From Myxococcales bacterium (GTDB taxonomy: Bacteria; Myxococcota; Myxococcia; Myxococcales; JAJYLH01), in the NCBI GenBank assembly GCA_021787845.1, contig JAJYLH010000058.1, forward strand, positions 1-33,281: 33,281 nt of DNA. The letters run 5' to 3'. The notes under the pieces are model-generated. The model had not been told where the DNA came from and ran no database searches. It was given only the letters and a program-made list of their open reading frames with translations. Below are positions 8,768-19,944 of this stretch, one piece after another. How positions within the stretch are numbered: the first letter of the stretch is position 1; every line of letters begins with the position of its first letter. The translations under genes and the position numbers were made by a program.

Positions 8768-8840
8768 CGCGGCCAGCGACGAGCCTCTCGGTGCTGGAAA
8801 CAATCGACCCGAGCATCTTCGGGCGCTTTCCCGTTCCCGC

Positions 8841-8885
8841 TCATTCTGAACCCTTCGGCAAGCTCAGGATGAACTTCGTCGAAGG
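8841..8885. repeat. Dispersed hairpin repeat (CTTCGGCAAGCTCAGGATGAAC type)
   Basis: TCATTCTGAACCCTTCGGCAAG continuing to CTCAGGATGAACTTCGTCG is a single copy of a palindrome type widespread in bacterial genomes. It lies downstream of two convergent genes, where a hairpin could serve as a terminator. Confidence 0.5.
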
Positions 8886-8902
8886 CTGGGCGGGAACACG
8901 GT

Positions 8903-8942
8903 GGACCGCTCGCCCTTCGATTGCGCCCAGGGTGAGCGGTCC
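8903..8942. repeat. Divergent R30 repeat with extended arms
   Basis: GGACCGCTC at 8903-8911 pairs exactly with GAGCGGTCC at 8934-8942. The core 8908-8937 (GCTCGCCCTTCGATTGCGCC and on) is a degenerate member of the 30-bp R30 family found inside hemA, hemF and the ABC exporter locus. Here it is non-coding, just past the 3' end of gshA, and could terminate transcription in both directions. Confidence 0.6.
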
Positions 8943-8964
8943 AGGACACCCCGACTTGTCGCCA

Positions 8965-12991: not shown

Positions 12992-13189
12992 CTAGACGTC
13001 CATCTTCTTGAGCGTCTCCCGGCGGTTCCCGCTGCAGCGCGCGGCGGCCTTGTCGATGAGCGCGTAGACCTCGTCGTTGAGCGCGGCGAGGAAATCCTCG
13101 CTCACCCGCATCTCCTTCTTGCGGACCTCGTCGCGCACCTTGCTCTGGATGATCAACATTTCCCGGGGAGCAGGATTGGTCTCGGTCAT
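12992..13189 (-). CDS. Bacterial histone-fold protein
   Basis: 65 residues. ATG with AGGTG about eight bases upstream. After a short N-terminal tail (1-10) the chain matches the histone-fold pattern of archaeal and bacterial histones: an S-K-V-x-x-x-V-x-K helix (about 16-24), a Ser that caps the long central helix (30-52), then the loop NRRETLKKMD, equivalent to the R-K-T-x-x-x-x-D of archaeal histones. The chain stops right after that Asp-Val, so the third helix is essentially missing, as in short bacterial histones related to Bdellovibrio Bd0055. Predicted role: DNA-binding dimer. It lies downstream of an RluA-family gene on the same strand, 132 bp away. Confidence 0.75.
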   Translation of the reverse strand: MTETNPAPREMLIIQSKVRDEVRKKEMRVSEDFLAALNDEVYALIDKAAARCSGNRRETLKKMDV

Positions 13190-13321
13190 GCTTCACCTCG
13201 ATGGCGCCGGTTTGTTGGTCTCGACCCACCATGTGCGAACGGAGGACACCGCGGCGCTGCGCCTTCGTGATCCGACGCCGCCGCGAGGGCGCGGCCGTCT
13301 TACCAGCGCGCCCCTCGGGCA

Positions 13322-14305
13322 TCAAGGGTCTCGGGCATCGAACGGCTTCACGCTCTCGCAAGCGACCGAAAGAGCGCGCTCCAGGCTCGCGAGGTCCGCC
13401 GGCCAAGGCGCGCTGAGCGTCATCGCGCCCAGTCGCGGATGCTCGAACGACACCGCGCTCGCGTGCAGGGCGACGCGGGGCGGCACCACCTGGGCGCCCG
13501 TTCGCGAAGTGAGCAGGACCGGTCCTCCATAGCGCTTGTCGCCCAGGAGCGGATGGCCGACCGAGGCCAGATGGACGCGAATCTGATGGGTGCGGCCGGT
13601 GCGGGGATGCGCCTCGACCAGCGCCGCCGACAGGCCGCTTCCCTCGAACAGGCGGCGCCGCAGGAGCTCGGTGCGCGCCGGCCGCCCGCGGGGTCCGACG
13701 GCGAAGGAACCGGGACGCGTACGGTCGGGCGCGATCGGCAGGTCGACGGTGCGCCCCTCCCACGCGGGCGCGCCCGCGACGAGCGCCAGGTATCGCTTAC
13801 CCACCCGGCCGGCGCGGAATTGCTCGGCGAGCGCCCGCTGGATTCCCGGCGTGCGGGCGAAGAGGGTGACGCCGCTGGTCTCCAGGTCGAGACGGTGAAC
13901 GAGACCGATCCAGGTGTTCTGCTCCCCTTTCGCCCGGAGAAGGCGCTGCGCCGCGGCGTCGAGGCCGGCGCCGAGGTCGGTCGCGGTCGCCTGCGCGGCG
14001 ATTCCCGGCGGCTTGTCCAGTGCGACCACGACCTCGTCGAGGAAGAGCAGGCGCTCCAGGTCCAACGCGGTCGGCCGCGGTCCTGGGCGGCGCTCGCGAA
14101 GGTGCGCGACCACCTCGTCGCCGGGACGAAGCGGTTCACCGCCATCCTTCGCGCGCCGCCGGTTGATGGTGATGGCGCCCGTCTGGAGCACCCGGCGGAA
14201 TGCATCGGGGGCGAGAGCGCCGCGGCCAGTCAGGAGCGCTTCGAGTGAGCTCGAGCCCTCCGCCGGACCGACGAGGAGCCGGATCCGCTTGGGGGTCGGC
14301 GGCAC
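13322..14305 (-). CDS. RluA-family pseudouridine synthase
   Basis: 327 residues. It converts uridine to pseudouridine in rRNA or tRNA. An S4-like N-terminal domain (about 20-70; LLTGRGALAPDAFRRVLQTGAITIN) precedes the catalytic domain with the RluA signature HRLDLETSG (catalytic Asp140). Further marks are KRYLALV, HPRTGRTHQIRVHLA and GHPLLGDKRYGG. It is full length. Exact specificity (RluA, RluC or RluD type) is not resolvable from sequence; the S4-like domain favours a RluC/RluD-type enzyme. It starts 13 bp after the fmdB-like stop, so the two are probably cotranscribed. Confidence 0.92.
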   Translation of the reverse strand: MPPTPKRIRLLVGPAEGSSSLEALLTGRGALAPDAFRRVLQTGAITINRRRAKDGGEPLRPGDEVVAHLRERRPGPRPTALDLERLLFLDEVVVALDKPPGIAAQATATDLGAGLDAAAQRLLRAKGEQNTWIGLVHRLDLETSGVTLFARTPGIQRALAEQFRAGRVGKRYLALVAGAPAWEGRTVDLPIAPDRTRPGSFAVGPRGRPARTELLRRRLFEGSGLSAALVEAHPRTGRTHQIRVHLASVGHPLLGDKRYGGPVLLTSRTGAQVVPPRVALHASAVSFEHPRLGAMTLSAPWPADLASLERALSVACESVKPFDARDP

Positions 14306-17556: not shown

Positions 17557-18479
17557 AGCGCCGCTCCTTCGAACGAGGCGCGTTCGCCCGATGCCGAGCG
17601 CGCGTTGAGCTCAGCGAAAGCGGTCTCGACCGCCGACGAAAGATCCGCCGCGTCGATTTCGCAGCGCACCAGCCGGTCGGGTTCGGGCGCGAAGCAGGCG
17701 GTGAAGTGGAGGCCCGTCGCCGTGCGCCTGGCCAGCGTGCCGAGCGGCAGGTGGCAGCCGCCTTCGAACCGCGCGAGCAGCCCGCGCTCCACCGCCGTCG
17801 CGTCGCGCGTCGGCTCGTGCTCGAGCTTGGCGCACACGTCGAAAGCGGAATCGTTCGCGCGGGTCTCGATGGCGAGCGCGCCCTGCCCCGGCGCCGGCAG
17901 CCACACGAGCGGATTCAAGCGGTAGGCGACGAGCGGCTGGAAGTCGAGCGCCAGCCGCGACAGCCCCGCCTCGGCGAGGACCACGGCAGCGTACTGGCCC
18001 TCCTTGCACTTGCGCACGCGGGTCGGAACGTTGCCGCGCAGGCTCGCCGGCTCGACATCGCCCTTCGCGGTTCGCACGTAGGCCTGGCGCCGCAAGCTCG
18101 ACGCGCCCACCTGGGCGCCCGCCTTCACCGGAAACGGCTGCGACGGGTCGTGCCAGTCCGGGTGCACGAGGAGCACATCCGCTACCGGTGCCCGTTCGCA
18201 CACCGCGGCGATGGCGAGCCCGGGCGGCGTCAGGGTCGGCAGGTCCTTCAGGCTGTGCACCGCGAGGTCGACCTGGCGCGCGTAGAGCGCTTCCTCCAGC
18301 TCCTTGGTGAAGAAGCCCTTCCCCTCGGCGCCGGAGAGGTCGCGGTCGAGGATGCGGTCGCCCTCGGTCTTGATGATGACGAGCCCGGTCGCGGCCGACA
18401 GCCGTGCCGCCACGTGCTTGGACTGCCACAGCGCGAGGTCGCTACCGCGGGTGCCGATGAGCAGCGTCCGATCGTTCAT
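17529..18479 (-). CDS. hemC: Hydroxymethylbilane synthase (porphobilinogen deaminase)
   Basis: 316 residues; ATG with GGAG seven bases upstream. It joins four porphobilinogen units into hydroxymethylbilane. It shows LLIGTRGSDLALWQS at the N-terminus, the catalytic Asp79 in AVHSLKDLP, ASSLRRQAYVR, LRGNVPTRVRK, and Cys242 in FEGGCHLPLG, to which the dipyrromethane cofactor attaches. It is complete. The gene begins 38 bp inside the end of hemA and ends 28 bp inside hemD, so hemA, hemC and hemD form a tightly coupled block. Confidence 0.96.
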   Translation of the reverse strand: MNDRTLLIGTRGSDLALWQSKHVAARLSAATGLVIIKTEGDRILDRDLSGAEGKGFFTKELEEALYARQVDLAVHSLKDLPTLTPPGLAIAAVCERAPVADVLLVHPDWHDPSQPFPVKAGAQVGASSLRRQAYVRTAKGDVEPASLRGNVPTRVRKCKEGQYAAVVLAEAGLSRLALDFQPLVAYRLNPLVWLPAPGQGALAIETRANDSAFDVCAKLEHEPTRDATAVERGLLARFEGGCHLPLGTLARRTATGLHFTACFAPEPDRLVRCEIDAADLSSAVETAFAELNARSASGERASFEGAALCQRIDAWS

Positions 18480-19944
18480 CCGTTTCTCCCGATGGCGCTT
18501 CCGACGCGGCTTGCCCGTTTTCGGAGAGCGCGCGCGTGACGGTCTGGAAGACCCCTTTCGAGTAGCTCGTCAAGAGCCGGTGCATCGCGTCGGCGACGAG
18601 CCGCTGGTGCTCGGCCGACAAGACCGACAGCTCGCCGTTCAGCGCCTCGGGGATGCCCTGCTGCTTGTGCGCGTTCGACAGGCTCTCCAGCGAATCGAAC
18701 AGCGTCGAGTAGCGGCGGACGTTGGTCCAGGCCGCCACCCGGCGCACGCCCTCGTCGACGATCGCCTCGGCTTGACGGAGCGCCTGCTTCGCTTGCGGGC
18801 GCTGGCCGAACCCGGTGGTCGTGAACCAGTCCAGGCCGAACAGCCGGGTGCCCTGCACGCCCTCGCACGTCGGCTCGACCTGCGGCGGGATGCCGATGTC
18901 GACGAGGACGAGCGGGCTCCTCCCTCGACTGCGCTCGGGATGAGCGGCAGGGGCCATCGGCCCGCTCAACGCCTCGGGACGAGCGGCAGGGGCCATCGGC
19001 TCGCTCAACGCCTGCCAGAGCTCCATCCCGCTCACCGGGAGCGCTCGCGTTCCGCTCAGCGCGCGTGGCTCCTTCCCGCTCATCTCGAGCGCAGTCGAGG
19101 GAGGAGCGGCGTGCTGGTCGCTCAAGGCTTGCTGGAGCGCCTCTTCTCTCAGGACGGGCCGCGACGCGCCGGTCGCGAAGACGATGGCGTCCATCTCGCG
19201 CAGGAGCGAGGCCATCTCGGCGATGGGCACGAAGCGGCAGGCGGCGAGCAGGGAGCCCAGCTCTTCGGGCGAGCGCGGCCGGCGGCTGGAGACGGTGAGC
19301 TCGACCCGGCCGTCGCTCGCGAAGGAGCGCGCGGTCTTCAGGCCGATTTCACCGAGGCCGATCACCGCGACCTTCGGACGGGGGCCGGAAGCGGTTTCCT
19401 GGAGCACGAGGTTGCGCGCCAGCGTGAAGACGCCCACCGACTCCGCGGCGATCGAGGTGCGGCTGTGGATTTGGCGGGCGTTCTGCACCGCGATGTGCGC
19501 GAGGCCGTTGAGCCCCTTGTCGAGCCAGCCCGACTTGCGCGCCTGGTCGAACGACCGGCGGAGCTGCTGGGTGATTTGCCGCTCGCCGACGACCAGCGAA
19601 TCGAGCGACGCCGAAACGCGCAGGACGTGCCGCACCGCATCCTCGCCGGTGTAGCGGTAGGGCTCCGGCAAAGGCCGCGGCTGGTCGCCCAGGCGGGCGT
19701 GGAGCTGCGCGCGCACGAGCTCCAGCGCGAACCCCGGATGCTCCGCGCTGAGCACCACCTCCTGGCGGTTGCAGGTCGAGACGAACGCCACGCCGTCGGC
19801 GAGCCCGGCGTTCTTCAGGCTCTTCGCGAGCTGATCGCACCAGGCGTCGTCGAACGCGAGCAGGCCTCGCTGGCGCGCGGGCACCTGCCGGTGGTTGAAG
19901 CCGACCACGCCGAAGCGATCGATCTCGGTGGCGAGCTCGGTCAT
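18442..19944 (-). CDS. hemA: Glutamyl-tRNA reductase with a repeat-derived internal insertion
   Basis: 500 residues against the usual 420-450. It reduces glutamyl-tRNA to glutamate-1-semialdehyde, the committed step of the C5 haem pathway. Visible: GFNHRQVP near the N-terminus, Cys58 in STCNR (the thioester nucleophile), SLDSLVVGERQI, and the NADPH-binding GLGEIG (197-202) leading to VFATGASRPVL. Between residues 275 and 343, where relatives run directly into LVDIGIPP, an in-frame insert of about 69 residues is present; its ends are R30 repeats (280-289 and 334-343) in inverted orientation. The site is a loop after the NADPH domain. The C-terminal dimerisation region is intact, so function is probably kept. 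ATG start, 112 bp after hemY. Confidence 0.95.
   Translation of the reverse strand: MTELATEIDRFGVVGFNHRQVPARQRGLLAFDDAWCDQLAKSLKNAGLADGVAFVSTCNRQEVVLSAEHPGFALELVRAQLHARLGDQPRPLPEPYRYTGEDAVRHVLRVSASLDSLVVGERQITQQLRRSFDQARKSGWLDKGLNGLAHIAVQNARQIHSRTSIAAESVGVFTLARNLVLQETASGPRPKVAVIGLGEIGLKTARSFASDGRVELTVSSRRPRSPEELGSLLAACRFVPIAEMASLLREMDAIVFATGASRPVLREEALQQALSDQHAAPPSTALEMSGKEPRALSGTRALPVSGMELWQALSEPMAPAARPEALSGPMAPAAHPERSRGRSPLVLVDIGIPPQVEPTCEGVQGTRLFGLDWFTTTGFGQRPQAKQALRQAEAIVDEGVRRVAAWTNVRRYSTLFDSLESLSNAHKQQGIPEALNGELSVLSAEHQRLVADAMHRLLTSYSKGVFQTVTRALSENGQAASEAPSGETDERSDAAHRHPR
18916..19107. repeat. 192-bp R30-bounded element inside hemA
   Basis: R30 copies at 18916-18945 and 19078-19107 point toward each other. 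The element is exactly 192 bp (64 codons) and codon-aligned. Within it, a 39-bp unit repeats in tandem (AGCGGCAGGGGCCATCGG from 18943 and 18982), also a multiple of three. Read in the hemA frame, the R30 ends encode APPSTALEMS and AHPERSRGRS. The element adds residues that normal HemA proteins lack. Confidence 0.85.

Follow-up and report, generated by a model that had tools for sequence, protein, structure and literature searches.

The window, which here means the whole stretch of 33,281 nucleotides that was analysed, encodes a 65-residue protein (MTETNPAPREMLIIQSKVRDEVRKKEMRVSEDFLAALNDEVYALIDKAAARCSGNRRETLKKMDV; 12992-13189, reverse strand) that is an alpha3-family bacterial histone, a placement that is secure from its translation, homology, and structural model. 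With a probability of roughly 0.75, the protein is a homotetrameric histone of the face-to-face (FtF) type that serves beside HU/IHF as an accessory nucleoid protein, wraps DNA without sequence specificity, and is expressed from its own promoter after rluA. FtF histones in Myxococcota are already known from sequence surveys, and the window protein adds a member.

Fold and assembly type

Searches of Pfam and NCBIfam found no significant family for the 65-residue protein (no match above the cut-off), so its placement is based on PDB sequences and published criteria. The sole significant phmmer matches in the PDB were the FtF histones HLp (9QT0, E 8.4e-8) and HTkC (9F2C, 5.7e-6), which, together with the predicted fold and the orthologues, bear out the description as a short bacterial histone given in the first-pass annotation. 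The sequence elements on which that description relied are all present, namely SKV in helix 1, a central helix, and R57-x-T59-x4-D64 followed by a stop one residue past the Asp.

A single-chain AlphaFold2 model, made with an alignment of 15 sequences, has a mean pLDDT of 86.5, with helices at residues 12-24 and 31-54 followed by just one turn at 62-64. Helix alpha1 (residues 12-24; 13118-13156, reverse strand) carries the putative DNA-contact positions S16, K17, R19, and R23, mapped from HLp S14, K15, K17, and K21 by an ungapped alignment. Helix alpha2 (residues 31-54; 13028-13099, reverse strand) is the predicted main dimerisation helix, with R51, equivalent to the FtF tetramer residue R49 of HLp, near its end. 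Loop L2 and the one-turn alpha3 (residues 54-65; 12995-13030, reverse strand) hold N55, the R57-x-T59-x4-D64 motif, and the C-terminal V65, where N55, R57, and D64 correspond to HLp N53, R55, and D62. Alpha3-truncated histones have the histone fold with an alpha3 of just 3-4 residues and a shortened alpha2 (Schwab et al., 2024, PMC11390915), and the helices and turn of the model agree with this description, which puts the window protein among the alpha3-truncated histones. The earlier statement that the third helix is lacking needs amending: the ten-residue alpha3 of nucleosomal archaeal histones (HMfB) is absent from the model, but a one-turn alpha3 is modelled, as is normal for alpha3 histones. 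Moreover, the chain ends one residue beyond the Asp in 15/15 members of the rluA-linked orthologue group and one residue after the clamp Asp in HLp, so such a C-terminus is the family norm.

Fold similarity places the protein among short histones. The first four chains found by Foldseek with the model were HLp and HTkC, followed by the Bdellovibrio dimer histone HBb (Bd0055), and VIA-align Z scores were 7.5 for HLp, 7.3 for HBb, 7.2 for HTkC, and at most 5.8 for other histones (HMfB, 5.4). As the monomer folds are near-identical (Z 7.5 versus 7.3, a tie), FtF and dimer histones are inseparable by fold alone. This near-equal superposition of the same short fold is one reason to consider a histone of the HBb type, a DNA-bending dimer that is never tetrameric, and others are that a profile of the Myxococcales group reached HBb at 6e-13 (HLp, 7e-20; HTkC, 8e-16; HMfA, 7e-4) and that Schwab et al. 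(PMC11390915) list dimers in Myxococcota_A.

Individual residues speak against the dimer. FtF histones form a double-sided tetramer held by profile residues R48 and N52, both of which bacterial dimers lack (Schwab et al., PMC11390915), and R49, N53, and R55 of HLp participate in its tetramer contacts (Hu et al., PMC12701072). The latter three align without gaps with R51, N55, and R57 of the window protein, which matches all of the FtF profile residues R48, N52, R54, T56, and D61 (R51, N55, R57, T59, and D64), while K17 of the SKV motif matches the strongly conserved alpha1 lysine (profile K16). These residues, along with S16, are invariant across 22 aligned Myxococcales homologues, whereas a profile alignment puts Ser and Asp of HBb at the positions of R51 and N55. 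The RKT motif that dimer histones have in L2 is absent, the window protein reading R57-E58-T59. Pairwise, the FtF histones were found but HBb was not, with no phmmer match up to E 10 and no alignment on direct comparison with the window protein. A tree of 69 columns, weakly resolved and with unresolved deep forks, likewise sets the window protein with FtF sequences and apart from HBb, the only dimer sequence; the window protein lies on a long branch, so some functional divergence is possible. A dimer that never forms tetramers is therefore unlikely, and the assignment to the Bd0055 type in the first-pass annotation gives way to the FtF type, for which a tetramer would be expected by homology. 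Two residues, the R and N preceding the RxT motif, can shift a dimer-type call to a tetramer type.

Putative DNA contacts, charge, and the rluA neighbourhood

Residues R59, K21, K15, S14, and K17 of HLp supply about half of its binding energy, and their counterparts in the window protein (K61, R23, K17, S16, and R19) are all basic or Ser. A further persistent contact, HLp K54, corresponds to R56. This Arg, just before R57, replaces a near-invariant Gly56 and is unusual in the orthologue group. Another peculiarity is E58 (13016-13018, reverse strand), a Glu in the DNA-contact loop L2 at a position that Ser, Ala, Lys, or Thr occupies in relatives. Overall, the protein has a net charge of about +1 and a pI of 7.9, compared with a pI of about 10 in a second group of Myxococcales histones.

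By homology with HLp, which wraps about 60 bp, the FtF histone of the window probably binds DNA as a nucleoid protein, as the first-pass annotation proposed, and may wrap it. Two monomers would pair by their antiparallel alpha2 helices in a handshake, and two such dimers would join on both faces via R51, N55, R57, and the chain ends to give a ring-shaped tetramer. The DNA backbone would be held independently of sequence by K17, R19, and R23 of alpha1 and R56 and K61 of L2, plus S16 and T59, with about 60 bp of DNA around the tetramer. Transcribed from a promoter of its own right behind rluA, the gene would supply an accessory to HU/IHF.

The conserved upstream neighbour is a gene for an RluA-type RNA pseudouridine synthase (13322-14305, reverse strand; PF00849, E 9e-24). 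Orthologues usually sit directly downstream of such a gene; in the window and in relatives of three other families (f2, f7, and f8), rluA immediately precedes the histone gene and shares its strand. Two relatives (L062/L073 and L066/L072) have no such neighbour. A candidate promoter, TTGATG-N17-TAAGAC with an extended -10 TG, lies at 13297-13325 (reverse strand), its -35 element over the rluA stop codon and in the same register as TTGAAA-N17-TAGAGN in relatives. Six f8 relatives (L059, L061, L063, L064, L065, and L075) have TTGAAA over the rluA stop, 17 bases, and TAGAGN, TAGACC, or TACTTC with an extended -10 TG, and three more (L057, L058, and L060) have a similar pattern nearby. All five positions of CTG-N-TA match in the window candidate, at a frequency of 0.00015 of all window positions. 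A generic sigma-70 scan found no promoter; the candidate was derived from comparing relatives, and since the test came after the pattern had been spotted, the evidence is suggestive only. By homology with the relatives, the candidate may be active and the histone made from it.

The rluA neighbour, kept in four families, also raises a different reading, in which a protein with the histone fold binds DNA poorly and instead serves, for example, as a partner or regulator of RluA in RNA modification or pairs as a subunit with another protein. The near-neutral charge, E58 in the DNA-contact loop, and the long branch would fit such a role, and with HU-family genes present a global role for the histone is not required. 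However, the key DNA-contact positions of HLp stay basic or Ser, R56 puts a basic side chain at the position of HLp K54, rluA is absent beside the histone at some loci (L062 and L066), and a promoter-like site belongs to the histone gene itself. We thus consider this reading quite improbable and retain that of a DNA-wrapping FtF tetramer.

Gene integrity and distribution in Myxococcales

The 65-residue ORF is a real gene. It starts with ATG, preceded by a ribosome-binding site GAGGTG (13194-13199, reverse strand), its product ends in NRRETLKKMDV, and its third-position GC is 0.92 (0.84-0.94 in neighbour genes). The gene is single-copy within its own 6.24 Mb genome. Another 14 genomes of the order carry orthologues with 43-53% identity, and the orthologues are spread over four Myxococcales families, including that of the window. 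Between orthologues, in close pairs of one related family, dN is far below dS (e.g., 0.013 versus 0.24), purifying selection that is seen among related genomes only, the comparison of the window gene with its nearest known relatives being left out as too diverged. These orthologues, the PDB homologues, the low dN, and the gene order kept with rluA indicate that the gene did not arise by chance. A chance reading frame or decaying gene, suggested by the very short ORF, the many long overlapping ORFs that arise in GC-rich DNA here, and the absence of Pfam/NCBIfam matches above cut-off, is exceedingly unlikely and is ruled out by homology, as orthologues keep their length, C-terminus, and gene order, relatives show purifying selection, and the gene has a ribosome-binding site and solved homologues. 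A search for a phage homologue of the histone found none, leaving a phage origin unsupported.

Elsewhere in the window, the frame of hemA (glutamyl-tRNA reductase; 18442-19944, reverse strand) contains in-frame low-complexity repeats (LSGPMAPAAHPERSRG-like) that look like a repetitive element inserted into an essential gene, and an ERSR-type stretch near 8800-8950 resembles them.

A histone match is present in 43 of the 195 genomes of the phylum; the alignment-based scan of genome contigs gave matches and a single-sequence scan gave none. The R, N, RxT, and D residues occur in 20/20 loci read, one of which is the window and one archaeal. Within the order there are two histone groups, one linked to rluA (pI 6.6-9.2) and one basic (pI 9.7-10.1), and several genomes of family f8 have both together. 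Members of the basic FtF-type group (L016-L022, L038, L041, L042, and L047) end in HDF plus 1-3 residues, two to four past the Asp. Tentatively, and with the odds against it, the rluA-linked histones may be a separate, nearly uncharged FtF subfamily that occurs alongside HU, in one family also alongside another FtF histone that is strongly basic, and that acts beyond bulk packaging, e.g., through mixed tetramers or a local or growth-phase-specific action linked to RluA.

A similar histone is found on a contig labelled Heimdallarchaeota (L068:1501-1758), which has VQSKVRD in common with the Myxococcales group and may reflect cross-domain transfer or a binning error. Two other genomes of the phylum have tandem double histone matches within single open frames (G182:C18:525880-526263 and G183:C11:628994-629365).

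HU background and comparison with known histones

Genes of the HU/IHF family (PF00216) number four in the genome of the window and 1-5 in each of the other Myxococcales genomes that were searched, in agreement with the first-pass view of a lineage that usually relies on HU. As these genes are kept, the histone adds to HU. In Leptospira, the source of the bacterial FtF histones studied, HU is reported to be absent (PMC12701072), and with HU missing the FtF histone is regarded as the chief organiser of the DNA. Since FtF histones and HU-family genes occur together in Myxococcales, these species provide an opportunity to study the contribution of a DNA-wrapping histone to a nucleoid based on HU. 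The rluA-histone pair is also found in G006, a relative whose genome is a single contig of 4,350,553 bases, so there may be a cultured relative.

The closest parallel is HLp of Leptospira perolatii (PDB 9QT0, 9QT1, and 9QT2; PMC12701072), which is alike in length and fold and shares the chain end one residue past the Asp of the RD clamp, the R49/N53/R55 tetramer residues, the SK motif, and the DNA-contact positions in alpha1 and L2. Identity is about 34-39% in structure alignments. HLp differs in its HU-less host, in its neighbour genes (SMC and MAP instead of rluA), and in having Thr in L2 where the window protein has Glu (E58). HTkC of Thermococcus kodakarensis (PDB 9F2C; PMC11390915), an archaeal FtF histone of the tetramer ring family, has the same fold and the top identity of the solved structures (40-45% aligned), but it has Glu at the N55 position and an L1 region two residues longer. 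Bd0055/HBb (PDB 8CMP and 8FVX; PMC10627809, PMC11317129) shares the alpha3-truncated histone fold and the RD clamp, whereas its identity is about 20%, it lacks the R and N of the dimer-dimer contact, and it has RKT rather than RET. The archaeal nucleosomal histone HMfB shares the histone fold and the R-x-T-x4-D motif, but it has a longer alpha2 and an alpha3 of three turns and forms hypernucleosomes through a different interface.
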